A DNA stretch of 54,014 nt, taken from Methanobrevibacter sp. (GTDB taxonomy: Archaea > Methanobacteriota > Methanobacteria > Methanobacteriales > Methanobacteriaceae). Below the pieces are notes generated by a model. The model made no database searches. It was not told the DNA's origin and was given only the letters and a program-made list of their open reading frames with translations. Positions 23,325-29,536 of this stretch are shown piece after piece. Where the stretch lies: the NCBI RefSeq assembly GCF_017940815.1, contig NZ_JAGAXX010000062.1, positions 1-54,014 on the forward strand, read 5' to 3'. The position numbers were made by a program, and so were the translations under genes. Numbering within the stretch: position 1 is the first letter of the stretch; the number at the start of each line of letters is the position of its first letter.

Positions 23325-23356
23325 AAAAAAAATAAAAAAGTGATTAAAAAATCACT
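23325..23356 (-). terminator. Terminator of the membrane zinc-ribbon gene
   Basis: AGTGATT (23339-23345) pairs with AATCACT (23350-23356), loop of 4. On the minus strand the stem, which overlaps the stop codon at 23355, is followed by a run of T (A-tract 23325-23338). Confidence 0.65.
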
Positions 23357-23993
23357 ATTGATATCTATAGAATTCAACTTCCCAACTTACAGTTTCATAA
23401 TAATCGATTGTAAATGTCTCTTCAGAACTTGAAGTGTAAGTGAATGAGTCGGATCTTGTTTCAACTGCGCTTTTAGAACCCCAGTCTACTCCGCCGGACT
23501 CTCCATTAGAGCCGCTTACGTACAAATGGTTTGTTGCATAGTTCTTAATAGGATATGCGGACAATTTCACCATGATTTTACCTTCAGGAACACTGATTGT
23601 TTTTGAACCGGATCCTGAACCGGAATAGCTTCCAATGGATTCCCAAGACTTTTTGTCCACAACCTCAGTGTTCTTCTTAGATGAGGATTCGGTTGTAGTT
23701 TTTTCAGAACTGCCTTGATCACTAGAATCATCTACTGACTGTGTCTCTTGAGAAGCAGTACTCTGTGAAGCATCATCACTTTGAACTGAACCAAAACCGT
23801 TATTCATTGCAAAAAATCCAATAGTACCTGCCAAAATAATTATTACTGCAATTAAAGCAATGATAACATATTTTGAATTGATACCTGAACCTGCAGAAGT
23901 TGATTCAGTATCCTGTACAGTTAATGAATTTCCACATTTAGTACAAAACTTTGCTTTGTCTTTATTTTCAAAACCACATTTACTACATTTCAT
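23355..23993 (-). CDS. Zinc-ribbon membrane protein with an extracellular beta domain
   Basis: 212 residues in three parts. A cytoplasmic zinc ribbon (CSKCGFENKDKAKFCTKCG, residues 3-21); one membrane helix (about 43-65, VIIALIAVIIILAGTIGFFA); then a Ser/Thr/Gln-rich linker (about 75-115) and a C-terminal beta-rich domain outside the cell. This topology recalls bacterial and archaeal zinc-ribbon membrane proteins that sense or anchor surface material, but I cannot name a function. ATG 23993 is preferred over an upstream in-frame TTG. It is monocistronic: a terminator overlaps its stop, and its promoter region is shared with the winged-helix gene starting at 24126. Confidence 0.8.
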   Translation of the reverse strand: MKCSKCGFENKDKAKFCTKCGNSLTVQDTESTSAGSGINSKYVIIALIAVIIILAGTIGFFAMNNGFGSVQSDDASQSTASQETQSVDDSSDQGSSEKTTTESSSKKNTEVVDKKSWESIGSYSGSGSGSKTISVPEGKIMVKLSAYPIKNYATNHLYVSGSNGESGGVDWGSKSAVETRSDSFTYTSSSEETFTIDYYETVSWEVEFYRYQ

Positions 23994-24086
23994 ATGAATC
24001 AATAATATTATTTTTAATGTATCTAATATAATAATTTAATGATACACATATAGATTTAAGAAGTGTTTAAAGTAATTATACGATGT

Positions 24087-24125: not shown

Positions 24126-24413
24126 ATGGTAAAAGAAAGTGATGAGCTTTTGAAATTAACTTCATATGTTCAAATCTCAAAATACCGAGAAAAGACATTA
24201 AAATCCATTGGAGACGAAGTTAAAATACCAACTAACATCGCAAAAGACAGTGGGATTAGGACCAATCACATTTCAAAAGTTCTAAGCGAATTAAAAAGCA
24301 AAGAAATAGTTGAATGCATTAATGAAGAAGCTCGTAAAGGAAGATTATACAGATTGACTGATACTGGTAAAGATGTATTAGAAACTATTAAAGCAAAAGA
24401 AGAAAAAGAATAA
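24126..24413 (+). CDS. Small winged-helix transcriptional regulator
   Basis: 95 residues, a single winged helix-turn-helix. After an N-terminal helix, IPTNIAKDSGIRTNHISKVLSEL (about 38-60) is the HTH with its recognition helix, and the wing follows as GRLYRLTDTGKDVL. It has no ligand-binding domain. A paralogue with the same plan lies at 45543-45803 (shared IxTxHISKVLxELK and LYRLTxxGxD-type positions). It is divergent from the membrane zinc-ribbon gene and convergent with the HExxH gene; its stop directly abuts that gene's stop. It may control its neighbours, which is inference from position. Confidence 0.85.
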   Translation: MVKESDELLKLTSYVQISKYREKTLKSIGDEVKIPTNIAKDSGIRTNHISKVLSELKSKEIVECINEEARKGRLYRLTDTGKDVLETIKAKEEKE

Positions 24414-25394
24414 TTAACCTAATTCTATACCTTCTTTAATACTTTCTAACTCTTCTATAGCTTCTCTATTACTTGAAACTTCTTTTAGAACATCATATAA
24501 CATATTTATTATCAAACTATTTTTCAAAGAAATTGAATAGCAGTTATCGGTTTCCAATAAAATTGATTGATTTGTGGGAGGGGCCATGTCCTTTCTGTAT
24601 TGCAATTTGATTTCATTTCTTAATCTGTCATCAATGTACTTTTCCAAATAAACAATGATTTCATTTGCAAAGGAATTTCCCAATTTTATTAGTGTGTCAA
24701 GGGTCTTTTCGTCAAAACCTGAATTTTCAACCAAACTGTTAAAAGATCCATAATTCTGATAGCCAAAAGGTATGAATCGTCCCTCTACAGTATGGGCGCA
24801 GTATTCAGCCATGATTTCAAATTCCATAATCTTCAGGAAATACCAAACGAAACTTTGAATGGTTGATGATGGCCTTACCTTGAAAATGCTGCATAATAAT
24901 GTTTCAATAATGTTAAATAAAAAGTAATGAGCCAATTCATGAATTATAGTTGAAATTTGAACTGAATCCTCTAACCTGTCATCATAAAAAATGCAGTTTC
25001 CTAAAAAGATAAATCCTCTTTCATATCCTCTGGATTTAGGTTTGCATTCAGTGAAAACGCTTGCAAGATTCATAACTTTATCTTTAGTTGACTTTCCCCA
25101 AACATCAACATAATCCGCCTTAATGAAAATATCAGACAGCAGGTTGTCATATTCTTCATCGCTGATTTCAGCATTCGCCAACAAGTTTTGATTATACTCA
25201 TCAAACAATATGTCAAAATCATCAATATGAATTGGATTAAGCTGGTTTTTGCACTTAATGCAATGAGTTGCTAAATCATCATTGCGTTCACCGCAAACAG
25301 GACAAATATGTTCCGGGAGCAGTTTATTGCCGCAATGAGTGCAATAATTATTTTCATTGAAATTGAGTGTTCCGCAAATATCACAAACTATCAA
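24414..25394 (-). CDS. Putative HExxH metallopeptidase with N-terminal zinc ribbons
   Basis: 326 residues. The N-terminus has three CxxC-type half sites and more: CDICG..CTHCG (about 4-22) and CPVCG..CIKCK (about 31-49), two zinc ribbons. The main domain contains IIHELAHYFL (about 149-158), a zincin HExxH motif, and further on MEFEIMAEYCAHTVEGRF (about 190-207), where an Glu could be the third ligand. No signal peptide or membrane helix is clear, so it should act in the cytoplasm. The substrate is unknown. It starts at TTG 25394 with GGTG five bases upstream; 8 bp separate it from the seven-zinc-ribbon gene. Confidence 0.8.
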   Translation of the reverse strand: MIVCDICGTLNFNENNYCTHCGNKLLPEHICPVCGERNDDLATHCIKCKNQLNPIHIDDFDILFDEYNQNLLANAEISDEEYDNLLSDIFIKADYVDVWGKSTKDKVMNLASVFTECKPKSRGYERGFIFLGNCIFYDDRLEDSVQISTIIHELAHYFLFNIIETLLCSIFKVRPSSTIQSFVWYFLKIMEFEIMAEYCAHTVEGRFIPFGYQNYGSFNSLVENSGFDEKTLDTLIKLGNSFANEIIVYLEKYIDDRLRNEIKLQYRKDMAPPTNQSILLETDNCYSISLKNSLIINMLYDVLKEVSSNREAIEELESIKEGIELG

Positions 25395-25402
25395 CCTGAC
25401 AC

Positions 25403-26296
25403 CTACCTAAGCATGCTTTTAAGACTTTTTACTGTTGAATTAATCGAATTTTTACGTGAAATTCTCCTTTTAATGTTTTTACCGCAGTTCGGACAATATT
25501 CATTATCCCAATCAAGAATTTCACCACAACTGCAAACAATCCGGGTTTTAATACTGCGATTAGGATTTAAAGGCCTATCGCAATGCTCACAAAATCTAAA
25601 ATGAGAAGGATTGCTATGGCCACAGATACAGACAATCTTCTTATCTTCCTTTTTTAGGTTAACACCACAATTTATACAAAAATCAGAGGTAACATCATTT
25701 AGAGCTGAACAAGTGCAAAGTATCTTAATATCATCCAAAGCACCGTAATTCCTCAAGGGCAATCCGCAATTACGGCAAAATTGTGAGAATTTCTCATTTT
25801 CATCACCACAAAAACAGAATATAGAATCCCTAAATTCCAGATTAAAATTACTGTAATTATCATTGGAGTTAATTGAATCTTCCTTCAATTGCTTTCCACA
25901 CATTTCACAATAGACATTCTCTTTTGAATTAATGGCCCCGCATTCACACAAAATGGTATCCATTGAAAACTTGGGTTTGGAATTTCTCTTCAATAATTTA
26001 GATAGTTTGCTTTCAGACCGTTTTGCCCCACACATATCACAGAAATCATTATCAATGTCATTTAAATAGCCACAGGAGCAAATTTCATATTTGAAGTTAT
26101 TTTTGGTGTTGATATATGGTGAAAAGTCTATTTCAAAATTGAAAAACCCGATATTGTGGATTGGAGGTGTTAAAACATTGACTTTTTCATTTGAATCAAA
26201 ACCTGTTTTACACCCACATCCCTTACAATAGGGTTCGTTTGGAAGTATTCTATGTCCACAATTTTTACAGTAATTACCAGGACGCATTTTCATCAT
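25403..26296 (-). CDS. Protein with seven tandem zinc ribbons
   Basis: 297 residues that consist almost entirely of zinc ribbons. I count seven CxCG/CxxC...CxxCG units: at about residues 10-28, 73-91, 117-135, 160-178, 193-211, 222-240 and 254-272. Each has two pairs of cysteines about 12 residues apart; in the sixth the final Gly is replaced (CEHCD). There is no catalytic motif or membrane segment, and the C-terminus is basic (KRRISRKNSINSTVKSLKSML). The likely role is binding of proteins or nucleic acid, unproven. Its ATGA start overlaps the stop of the DHH gene by 4 bp. Confidence 0.8.
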   Translation of the reverse strand: MMKMRPGNYCKNCGHRILPNEPYCKGCGCKTGFDSNEKVNVLTPPIHNIGFFNFEIDFSPYINTKNNFKYEICSCGYLNDIDNDFCDMCGAKRSESKLSKLLKRNSKPKFSMDTILCECGAINSKENVYCEMCGKQLKEDSINSNDNYSNFNLEFRDSIFCFCGDENEKFSQFCRNCGLPLRNYGALDDIKILCTCSALNDVTSDFCINCGVNLKKEDKKIVCICGHSNPSHFRFCEHCDRPLNPNRSIKTRIVCSCGEILDWDNEYCPNCGKNIKRRISRKNSINSTVKSLKSMLR

Positions 26297-28554
26297 TGTT
26301 TGGATAAAGATTGAATTTCTTCCACAACCTTATATAAAACTTCTTCGCCTAATCCTTCGATGTATTTTATAGATCCGGCACATTCATGGCCTCCACCATC
26401 AATACCTGCTTGTGGAACCCTTTCAATCATTTTTGAAACTATTTCATTAACATTAAATCCATATTGTTCATTTACCGCATCAGTTGCCCTGAATACCCCA
26501 AAGTCTGGACCATGTCCTAATGTGACAATTGGTTTGTCTTCTCCCAATTCCTTAATTACATGGTCATGGACAAAACCGCATGTTTTTCCAGGTGCTGGGA
26601 ATGTAAACTTATGTGCAAATTTCTCTACATCAAGTAAATTGAAGTAAATTCCATTTTCAAGCTGTGTCCTTTTGATATTAGGAAGAGCAGCCCTAAGTTG
26701 AGTGTCAATCCTCTTTTGATATTCATTATATAAAGCTTCAATCATCTTTTTGTGTTTATCAAGATTGCCAACCGCCAAAATGGTATCCATTATTCCTCTA
26801 CCATTCATGAATCTTAAGAAATAAGCTTCAAAGTCAACACATTCAGCTATCTTAGCCAAATGCTCTTCAGTAAATCCTTTTTGAGCGGCTAATTTTAAGT
26901 ATTGGTATACTTCACCGCTTTCCGCACGGTCACCTAATGCAGCCACAGCAGGCAAGTGTTGAACTAACCTTTTAACATCTGGATTTATGATATGTGCCAC
27001 TTCTGTAGCAAGTGCTCCTGCTGTCAATTGTGAGTCTCCCCCAACAAGATACGGATTTACATGACAGTCAACGTATTCATCCACAGCCACAGTGGCTCCA
27101 TAAATTTCTCCGTCACGTTCGTCTTTTGTAATCAAGTCCCCTGGAGAGTGGTGGTCGATTACAACAACCTCAATATCATAGATTTTCGCTTGCATCAATG
27201 CCACAATATCCTCTTCGGTTGAACCGTTGTCCAACAGTACTATCAGAGGTAATTTCTGACCATGCCTTTCCTGATCCTCTAAAGCAAATGACAAGTCCTT
27301 AACCACATCTTCAAGCTCATAGAATGGAGCCTTACTAGGCGATCTTTTGAAATAATAGTATTCAGCATCATTACTTGGATTTTCCTTTTGTATCAATGGG
27401 ACAATAGCCTTTTCCATCGCAACTCCTGAACATATTCCATCCGCATCGTTATGATGTCTTAACAAAATTGTCCTTCCATCAAGTATTGCCCTTCTTATTC
27501 TTCTAGCTGCCTCATACATCTTAGGTTTAAGTCTGTTTAAAACATCACTTTTAACCAAGAATTCAACATCTTCCGGTTGAGCTTTCCTATTTAATGCATC
27601 ATCAATTAATTTATGTAATTGTTTAGTACTTTCTTCATCAAGTTTTACCATTGAAGATGACTCGATTTGAGTTTTTCCACCATGTTCATTAACTTCACCA
27701 ATCACCTGAACCGCATCATCCAACTCGATTTCAGGATAAGACCTCTCTCCAGCCTTGTCAAATGCAGCAATTTCAGTAGTACCGCTTTCATCACTAATGA
27801 TAAATATTGTTGGACCGGAAGTCTGCTGGATTTGCTGTACTTGCCCATCAATCCTGACGATTTTTCCTTTTTTCTCTTCAAGTTGACCGATGAGAGTTCT
27901 TGGAATGGATTTGGTCAATCTCTTAAGATTATAAGAATCAACATAAGCCGGTGCAAAATCAATCTTGCCTTCCCTTGACTTGATGGCTGTGATGAATACG
28001 ACAATCTCATCACCCACATTATATTCGGAGACATCTCCTCTCATAAGTCCCCAAACGTTATTGTTCAAGGAAACGAAAGCCCCATACCTTTCAACTCTTG
28101 TGATTTTACCCTTGTATAATTTGTCCCTGTCAATATCTTTCATGTTACAAATTGAATCAAGAACGTAAACATCCCTTTTGGCATTTCTGCGAGCTTCATA
28201 CTCATCATGCTTAGCCTTTTCAGCTTTTCTTTTCTCACCGCACTCATGGCAGATGTCATATTTCTCATCGAGCAGTTTTCCACAGTCTCTACAGACATTA
28301 ACCTGACCTGTTCCATGACAGTAAGGACATTCCTCATAAACTTCAACCTGTCCTTTTCCGTTACAAACTTCACATGGAATGTCTTCATCTCCTCCGAGGT
28401 CAAATTTTGCTCTTGCATTATTGTTTATTCCTTTGAAATGACTTCCCACATCAAAGGCATCGTCTTCAAAACCTGTTCCGCCACATGCATCACATTCCTT
28501 ATAATCCACTACAACGGAACCTATTCCCTTACATTTTGGACATTTAGTTTTCAT
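26293..28554 (-). CDS. DHH-family phosphoesterase with DnaJ-type zinc finger, S1 and OB domains
   Basis: 753 residues, a RecJ-like phosphodiesterase of archaeal type. In order: four DnaJ-like CxxCxGxG units (CPKCKGIG, CDACGGTG, CEVCNGKG, CPYCHGTG; residues 5-86), a zinc ribbon (CRDCG..CHECG, about 89-108), an S1 domain (about 140-205), an OB fold (about 225-300), the DHH core with HHNDADGIC (about 363-371), DNGSTEED and VIDHHSPGD, and a DHHA1 domain with GIDGGGHECAG. The metal-binding Asp/His set is complete. Such proteins act on RNA or single-stranded DNA; the exact substrate is not evident. It is the second gene of a four-gene operon. Confidence 0.88.
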   Translation of the reverse strand: MKTKCPKCKGIGSVVVDYKECDACGGTGFEDDAFDVGSHFKGINNNARAKFDLGGDEDIPCEVCNGKGQVEVYEECPYCHGTGQVNVCRDCGKLLDEKYDICHECGEKRKAEKAKHDEYEARRNAKRDVYVLDSICNMKDIDRDKLYKGKITRVERYGAFVSLNNNVWGLMRGDVSEYNVGDEIVVFITAIKSREGKIDFAPAYVDSYNLKRLTKSIPRTLIGQLEEKKGKIVRIDGQVQQIQQTSGPTIFIISDESGTTEIAAFDKAGERSYPEIELDDAVQVIGEVNEHGGKTQIESSSMVKLDEESTKQLHKLIDDALNRKAQPEDVEFLVKSDVLNRLKPKMYEAARRIRRAILDGRTILLRHHNDADGICSGVAMEKAIVPLIQKENPSNDAEYYYFKRSPSKAPFYELEDVVKDLSFALEDQERHGQKLPLIVLLDNGSTEEDIVALMQAKIYDIEVVVIDHHSPGDLITKDERDGEIYGATVAVDEYVDCHVNPYLVGGDSQLTAGALATEVAHIINPDVKRLVQHLPAVAALGDRAESGEVYQYLKLAAQKGFTEEHLAKIAECVDFEAYFLRFMNGRGIMDTILAVGNLDKHKKMIEALYNEYQKRIDTQLRAALPNIKRTQLENGIYFNLLDVEKFAHKFTFPAPGKTCGFVHDHVIKELGEDKPIVTLGHGPDFGVFRATDAVNEQYGFNVNEIVSKMIERVPQAGIDGGGHECAGSIKYIEGLGEEVLYKVVEEIQSLSKQ

Positions 28555-28568
28555 TTAAAACCTCACGT

Positions 28569-29069
28569 TTAATTAAATAATTCTGAATTATTTTGAACAA
28601 TCTCATTTCTTTGATTTTGATATGTCAATGATTCATAAATGTAATCATTGGCCTCAGATCCATAATTTGAACCTGTGTAATTATAATAATTCCTCAAATA
28701 ATAAATTGATTCTTTCAAATCATCAACAGCTTTTAATTTCAATTCTAATTCTTTTATGGTTGTGTCAATGTAATCCTTATGAACATCATTCAAATCCTTG
28801 CTAAACTTCTCTTTAATCTCAAGTAACTTATTCAAACTACTGTTGTAATTATCTCCAGCTGAAATCGCCTTTTGACTTGATTCTTCATAATTTTTATTAT
28901 TCAATAATTCAACGGATTCATTGTAATCTTTATCACCCTGAACTATACTATCACTAATTGATGGCATGGACTGGTTAATATTATCCATTGAACTATCAAT
29001 AAAGACAATAGCAGTGGATATAAAAACTAAAACTACAATAAAAATTATTAATTTTATATAACTAGACAC
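28569..29069 (-). CDS. Membrane-anchored helical protein (166 aa), GTG start
   Basis: One N-terminal membrane segment (about residues 5-25) and a mostly helical outer part with many Asn and Ser, rich in Glu/Lys heptad-like stretches (SSLNKLLEIKEKFSKDLNDV). I see no known domain or motif. The only early start is GTG 29069, with no SD, so the N-terminus is uncertain. The DHH gene begins 14 bp downstream, so the two are probably cotranscribed; the upstream DNA to 29170 is AT-rich and includes the terminator T-run of the superoxide reductase gene. Confidence 0.6.
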   Translation of the reverse strand: MSSYIKLIIFIVVLVFISTAIVFIDSSMDNINQSMPSISDSIVQGDKDYNESVELLNNKNYEESSQKAISAGDNYNSSLNKLLEIKEKFSKDLNDVHKDYIDTTIKELELKLKAVDDLKESIYYLRNYYNYTGSNYGSEANDYIYESLTYQNQRNEIVQNNSELFN

Positions 29070-29170: not shown

Positions 29171-29536
29171 TTATTCGCTGGACCAAAGTCCGTGTAAGTT
29201 ACAAAATGCTAATACTTTAACATCATCAGTTGAGTTAACTGTGAAGGTTGCTTCTGCAACATCTCCAGGAGCGAAGCATTTTGCGTATTGTTCATTACCT
29301 GCTTCAACAACTAAGAATTGAATGTAGTGGTCGTCATCCATTGGGTGTGCTGCTTCACCGACTTTAACGGTTACTTTGTCACCATCGATTTCAACTACAG
29401 GTTTGTGTTTTGGAGATTTTTCTCCTTCAGTTTGTACTGGTATTTTGAGCATGTGAGCGTCACATGCGTCGCCGTCATCTTCAACTAAAACTTGGATAAT
29501 ACTTCCACAGTCGTCACATTTTAATATTTTTGCCAT
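29171..29536 (-). CDS. Superoxide reductase (desulfoferrodoxin family)
   Basis: Reduces superoxide to peroxide in anaerobes. 121 residues. Centre II is complete: His of PKHKPVVEIDG, both His of HPMDDDHYIQF and the Cys/His of CNLHGLW; the Lys expected beside the first His is present. Centre I is degenerate: CDDCG (residues 6-10) is followed by a single Cys in DACDAH where desulfoferrodoxin has Cys-Cys, so the rubredoxin-like iron site is probably absent. SD AGGAG lies 9 bases before ATG 29536; an ATG at 29545 overlaps the SD and was rejected. Confidence 0.85.
   Translation of the reverse strand: MAKILKCDDCGSIIQVLVEDDGDACDAHMLKIPVQTEGEKSPKHKPVVEIDGDKVTVKVGEAAHPMDDDHYIQFLVVEAGNEQYAKCFAPGDVAEATFTVNSTDDVKVLAFCNLHGLWSSE

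Follow-up and report, generated by a model that had tools for sequence, protein, structure and literature searches.

A run of four closely spaced minus-strand genes in a Methanobrevibacter sp. genome (NCBI RefSeq assembly GCF_017940815.1) brings together a DHH protein, a protein made of seven zinc ribbons and a putative HExxH peptidase, and raises the question of whether this association is conserved, which of its parts are already known and what the products might do together. The window analysed here is the whole 54,014-nucleotide stretch of contig NZ_JAGAXX010000062.1 in which the run lies, and the genes are referred to by the labels given in Table 1.

Anatomy of the operon and its zinc sites

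The coordinates, strand and spacings given in a first-pass annotation of this DNA were all found to be exact: MEM and HAN are separated by 14 bp (28569/28554), HAN and ZR7 share a 4-bp ATGA overlap at 26293-26296, and ZR7 and the HExxH gene are 8 bp apart (25403/25394). The zinc sites over the operon number about 13, comprising 12 Cys4 sites (three in HAN, seven in ZR7 and two in the HExxH protein) and one catalytic HExxH, within the earlier estimate of eleven to thirteen, and the converging winged-helix gene and the following membrane zinc-ribbon gene reported at the same time are both present. The start codons of the HExxH gene (TTG) and of MEM (GTG) are consistent with aligned relatives.

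Table 1. Genes of the run and its immediate neighbours, with positions in the window.
Gene	Position	Strand	Description
MEM	28569..29069	-	166 aa, N-terminal membrane helix and helical domain
HAN	26293..28554	-	Hef-associated DHH nuclease of 753 aa with S1 and OB folds and, at the N-terminus, three Cys4 zinc sites
ZR7	25403..26296	-	296-297 aa, seven Cys4 zinc ribbons
HExxH protein	24414..25394	-	326 aa, two N-terminal zinc ribbons and M78-like zincin domain
Winged-helix gene, convergent	24126..24413	+	HTH_45 type; conserved neighbour
Membrane protein with one zinc ribbon	23355..24002	-	downstream neighbour only

The transcript probably starts just before 29069, where it is placed on account of the stretch, judged by eye to be T-rich, that comes after the desulfoferrodoxin gene at 29171; MEM is probably part of the same transcript. 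A promoter and terminator scan of the sigma-70 type, which is not meant for archaea, gave a number of sites not above that in shuffled sequence. That the four genes have the anatomy described and form an operon is almost certain.

The DHH protein and its membrane neighbour

Sequence comparison identifies the DHH protein as a known enzyme, the Hef-associated nuclease (HAN). It matches NCBIfam NF053577 at an E-value of 3.9e-210 over model positions 2-603 of 612, with a score of 699.4 bits that lies below the 840-bit equivalog cut-off, while other RecJ-type models score 42 bits or less; the solved chain 5yh1, deposited as an S1P family member, is matched at 2.7e-143. Pfam domains occur in the order DnaJ_CXXCXGXG, S1, OB and DHH, with the DnaJ and S1 matches below their cut-offs, and this order matches the published one of a DnaJ-type zinc finger, two OB-type folds and DHH (PMC5717133). 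The three N-terminal Cys4 sites, consisting of two DnaJ-type pairs and one ribbon, bear out the earlier description of a DHH enzyme with two or more zinc sites; the idea of a novel phosphoesterase does not survive the assignment to HAN. HAN is considered to act with Hef at stalled forks (PMC5717133), and a Hef-like frame of 775 residues with an ERCC4 domain (E-value 4e-34) and helicase motifs lies elsewhere in the same genome (G000:C80), as expected from the published co-occurrence of the two. Apart from its score, the present locus differs from HAN as described by NF053577 in the ZR7 and HExxH genes that follow. In a genus that is apparently Methanosphaera (g26, genomes G131-G150; L192, L193), the match to HAN starts only at about query residue 113-129, and the copies found lack the zinc-finger part at the N-terminus.

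MEM stands beside HAN in sampled other genera of Methanobacteriaceae, in HAN loci from which ZR7 and the HExxH gene are absent, and on these comparisons it is the ancestral neighbour of HAN across the family. Its orthologues carry a signal-like helix at the N-terminus, often with a lipobox-like SGC, and no zinc site. This ancestral adjacency, the signal-like N-terminus and the lack of a zinc site rule out MEM as a member of the zinc module. Neither HAN nor its adjacency to MEM is new, and the association that had been called unfamiliar is thereby narrowed down to the ZR7-HExxH pair behind HAN, which is new.

The seven-ribbon protein

In ZR7, the cysteines of the seven Cys4 ribbons are invariant or nearly so among 10 aligned members, two of which have a shortened first ribbon. 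The first knuckle is CxC in six of the seven ribbons, and a conserved stretch, PIHNIGFFNFxIDFSPYI, lies between ribbons 1 and 2. The protein matches Pfam DZR (PF12773) over four stretches with 69.3 bits (cut-off 27.3 bits), the seven Cys4 sets being recognised by alignment. Its likeness to DZR proteins consists in Cys4 ribbons in tandem; it differs from them in having seven ribbons, CxC knuckles, the conserved stretch and a fixed gene position. The AF2 model of ZR7 (pLDDT 44) is too low in confidence for structural use.

A probable peptidase family of divergent M78-like type

The HExxH motif, whose lack of conservation in relatives would have counted against the first-pass view, proved to be invariant in them. 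In a set of 40 sequences, made up of 31 operon copies and 9 paralogues at 28-37% identity, H152, E153 and H156 of the HELAH motif are invariant together with E197, a predicted third zinc ligand; D138, R140, L154 and R206 are further invariant residues. Against Pfam Peptidase_M78 (PF06114) the window protein scores 20.2 bits and does not reach the gathering score of 22 bits; 23 of the 40 relatives match this model at an E-value of 0.01 or better (best 1.5e-5). Alignment of the family with 34 archaeal M78 proteins by hhalign gave a probability of 81.7 and an E-value of 1.1e-5, compared to a probability of 1.2 in a control with 20 M48 proteins, so that M48 is without support as the peptidase family. 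The AF2 model (pLDDT 86.9) was compared with known structures using Foldseek, and PprI was the first PDB neighbour, with more PprI/IrrE entries in the top six, none of these hits being significant (best E-value 0.08, TM about 0.2). These sequence and model comparisons point to an M78-like zincin outside the filed Peptidase_M78 members, and it is quite probable that the protein is a zinc peptidase of this type.

The resemblance to Peptidase_M78 and COG2856 proteins (ImmA, IrrE/PprI) consists in an HExxH on a long helix, a later invariant glutamate, similarity of profile and the best, though not significant, PDB neighbours. The protein differs in its N-terminal ribbons, its sub-cut-off Pfam score, and the lack of a match to HTH or GAF domains and of an XRE partner; neither the HExxH protein nor the genes closest to it showed an XRE-type HTH. 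In IrrE, the zinc peptidase by which DdrO is cleaved, the metal is bound by His82, His86 and Glu113 (PMC5552922); the third of these ligands lies 27 residues past the second histidine, whereas the predicted distance in the HExxH protein is 41.

An HExxH and zinc ribbons beside a fork-repair nuclease are also what might be expected of an analogue of SPRTN/Wss1, in which the HExxH protein would digest proteins trapped or crosslinked on DNA, the ribbons would bind nucleic acid or protein, and the DNA would be handed to HAN. SprT-like proteases do share the combination of HExxH and zinc ribbon, but none of the 40 relatives matches the SprT domain (PF10263) at an E-value of 0.01, and SprT is likewise without support as the peptidase family. 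The nearest profile is that of M78, whose described relatives cleave specific repressors (PMC5552922, PMC2701414), and we consider a SPRTN/Wss1-like role improbable.

Besides Methanobrevibacter, other Methanobacteriaceae including Methanosphaera yielded members of the HExxH family, whose N-termini vary widely. The operon copies form one clade in the tree with support of 100/100, indicating that they have one origin within the wider Methanobacteriaceae peptidase family. A search of viral contigs found no relatives, so that a viral origin is unsupported.

Conservation of gene order across the genus

A search of the gene neighbourhoods of ZR7 showed that it lies genus-wide beside the HExxH gene and that the order is not peculiar to one genome. 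Of 67 Methanobrevibacter-like genomes, 63 have HAN and the HExxH gene about 0.9-1.5 kb apart on one strand with ZR7 between them; amongst the four exceptions, contig ends interrupt the locus in G012 and G024, and G030 and G033 have no such pair at HAN. The adjacency of HAN and the HExxH gene persists down to HExxH identities of about 43-44%. At an E-value of 1e-25, ZR7 was detected in 64 of the 67 genomes, as one gene each (split in two in G021), but not in any of 16 other Methanobacteriaceae genera; genomes without ZR7 are also without an intact HExxH orthologue. The first-pass view of a conserved zinc-rich operon thus holds as regards gene order, but not as regards its make-up, with MEM outside the zinc module and the DHH protein being the known HAN.

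Spacing between ZR7 and the HExxH gene is about -4 to 10 bp in the measured loci, excluding G098, where a run of N intervenes. An apparent fusion of the two genes in that draft genome (L184 213-2054) is an artefact of this run of N bridging them. L100 (G012:C83) and L146 show a contig that is duplicated in mirror image on either side of a central point, for which an artefact of assembly is the probable cause.

Start-stop overlaps and near-zero spacings between HAN and ZR7 are seen in most genomes. Where 410-510 bp separate them (G011, G034 and G021), the gap is not an operon break, as it is filled by a co-directional gene for a one-ribbon membrane protein, and the ZR7-HExxH spacing is near zero even there. 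This extra gene lies at about 7033-7541 of L074 (G034), at about 6851-7358 of L075 (G011), where it runs from the stop of HAN to the start of ZR7, and in the same gap of L076 (G021). Its product is small and combines a single zinc ribbon with two hydrophobic stretches, and the three genomes belong to divergent members of the genus.

When the window was compared with G018, the pN/pS values were 0.167/0.711 for the HExxH gene, 0.167/0.745 for ZR7 and 0.048/0.689 for HAN; the first two are under purifying selection and evolve faster than HAN. Since gene order and reading frames persist in 63 of the 67 genomes and pS is 0.71-0.75 against a pN of 0.17 for the two new genes in this one pairwise comparison, the operon is more than chance.

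Does the position behind HAN carry functional meaning? RNase P genes, a proteasome gene, IscS, IscU, MetY and CysS surround the operon at constant positions in most of the genus, and because the whole neighbourhood is syntenic, adjacency to HAN in one genus is weaker functional evidence than the count suggests and may mean little. ZR7 and the HExxH gene may instead be a two-gene module unrelated to HAN, placed there once in the ancestor of the genus and kept by slow change of gene order, as would also agree with the presence of HAN without the pair in the 16 other genera, its much slower evolution and the scattering of HExxH paralogues over many unrelated locations. Gene order that decays slowly within a single genus could be explanation enough for the link to HAN. 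Set against such an unrelated module are the overlaps and near-zero spacings between HAN and ZR7 in most genomes, and the extra zinc-ribbon gene that joined the same run in one group. The stronger evidence for a functional unit lies in how closely the genes are spaced, in ZR7 and the HExxH gene being present or absent together, and in the survival of the run where its surroundings changed. Zinc-ribbon genes are common in these genomes, and a ribbon-rich neighbour is therefore less special than it appears. We regard an unrelated module as a serious possibility, though one well short of even.

Possible roles of the module

The most likely explanation, which we favour only tentatively, is a regulated zinc peptidase that relies on ZR7 for activity or targeting and is made together with a fork-repair nuclease. 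A co-directional two-gene module of ZR7 and the divergent M78-like peptidase stands downstream of HAN and its ancestral neighbour. In this view ZR7 would serve the peptidase as a dedicated partner, acting as a scaffold that delivers it to its substrate or as a zinc- and redox-responsive control. The peptidase may cleave a specific regulator or a protein associated with repair upon damage to forks or thiol sites, and HAN and the peptidase would then answer the same stress, replication or oxidative. The gene run suggests a stress- or repair-linked proteolysis module in this sense; every step beyond the anatomy and the peptidase relationship is what we infer. The parts of this explanation differ in strength: a dedicated partnership of ZR7 with the peptidase is somewhat more likely than not, a functional link of the pair to HAN or DNA repair falls a little below an even chance, and regulation by zinc or redox is rather unlikely.

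Regulated proteolysis upon DNA damage is known from Deinococcus and mobile elements; to our knowledge, the archaeal regulation of such damage responses is poorly understood. For IrrE, zinc that cysteine sites release during oxidative stress has been proposed to switch the enzyme on (PMC5552922), and PprI is also activated by ssDNA (PMC10904395). By analogy, the locus might be an archaeal counterpart of the IrrE/DdrO damage response, in which the seven-ribbon protein would restrain the M78-like peptidase or feed it zinc, a regulator would be cleaved on oxidative or replication stress, and HAN would be co-made to act at stalled forks with Hef. This elaborate version is speculative and improbable.

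One candidate substrate is the product of the winged-helix gene, which adjoins the HExxH gene convergently in nearly all genomes of the genus. M78 (COG2856) genes are often found in operons with XRE genes, and the usual targets of M78 peptidases are HTH proteins encoded beside them (PMC2701414), so an ImmA-type switch could be imagined in which the peptidase cleaves this neighbour. However, the winged-helix gene stays in place in G033, where the HExxH gene is missing at the locus, and its product is far more conserved than the peptidase, is not of XRE type and has several paralogues per genome; such a switch is very unlikely. A Methanobrevibacter genome can hold up to about 13 members of the winged-helix family; the copy in the window is unusually conserved (82-99%). 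A search for defence-system membership with PADLOC gave only low-scoring matches, to the winged-helix and helical proteins of the locus.

HAN, zinc ribbons and M78 peptidases are already known. The libraries and literature searched hold no description of ZR7, of the HExxH peptidase family or of their constant position behind HAN, and the titles and abstracts listed for Methanobrevibacter together with zinc ribbon or metalloprotease contained nothing on this locus. The locus offers a testable candidate in common gut methanogens, namely an M78-like peptidase with a putative dedicated zinc-ribbon partner beside a fork-repair nuclease, and it defines a Methanobacteriaceae peptidase family unnamed in any library searched. 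Even if the link to HAN is one of synteny only, a genus-wide two-gene module remains.

Other M78-related proteins of the family

Methanobacteriaceae also contain a large M78-like zincin family with the motif EYCAHTVEGRF (L091-L099, L144-L179, L198-L203), the N-termini of which include a single ribbon, TPR-like regions and extensions up to about 1170 aa. On single-linkage clusters, a neighbour from one cluster, facing the opposite way, is shared by 20 of its loci, and 18 have a zinc-ribbon neighbour. Ordinary M78 peptidases are likewise found in Methanobacteriaceae (L204-L208, L235-L263), several of them as longer frames with an N-terminal extension, and one is present in the genome of the window (G000:C24:12828-13181).
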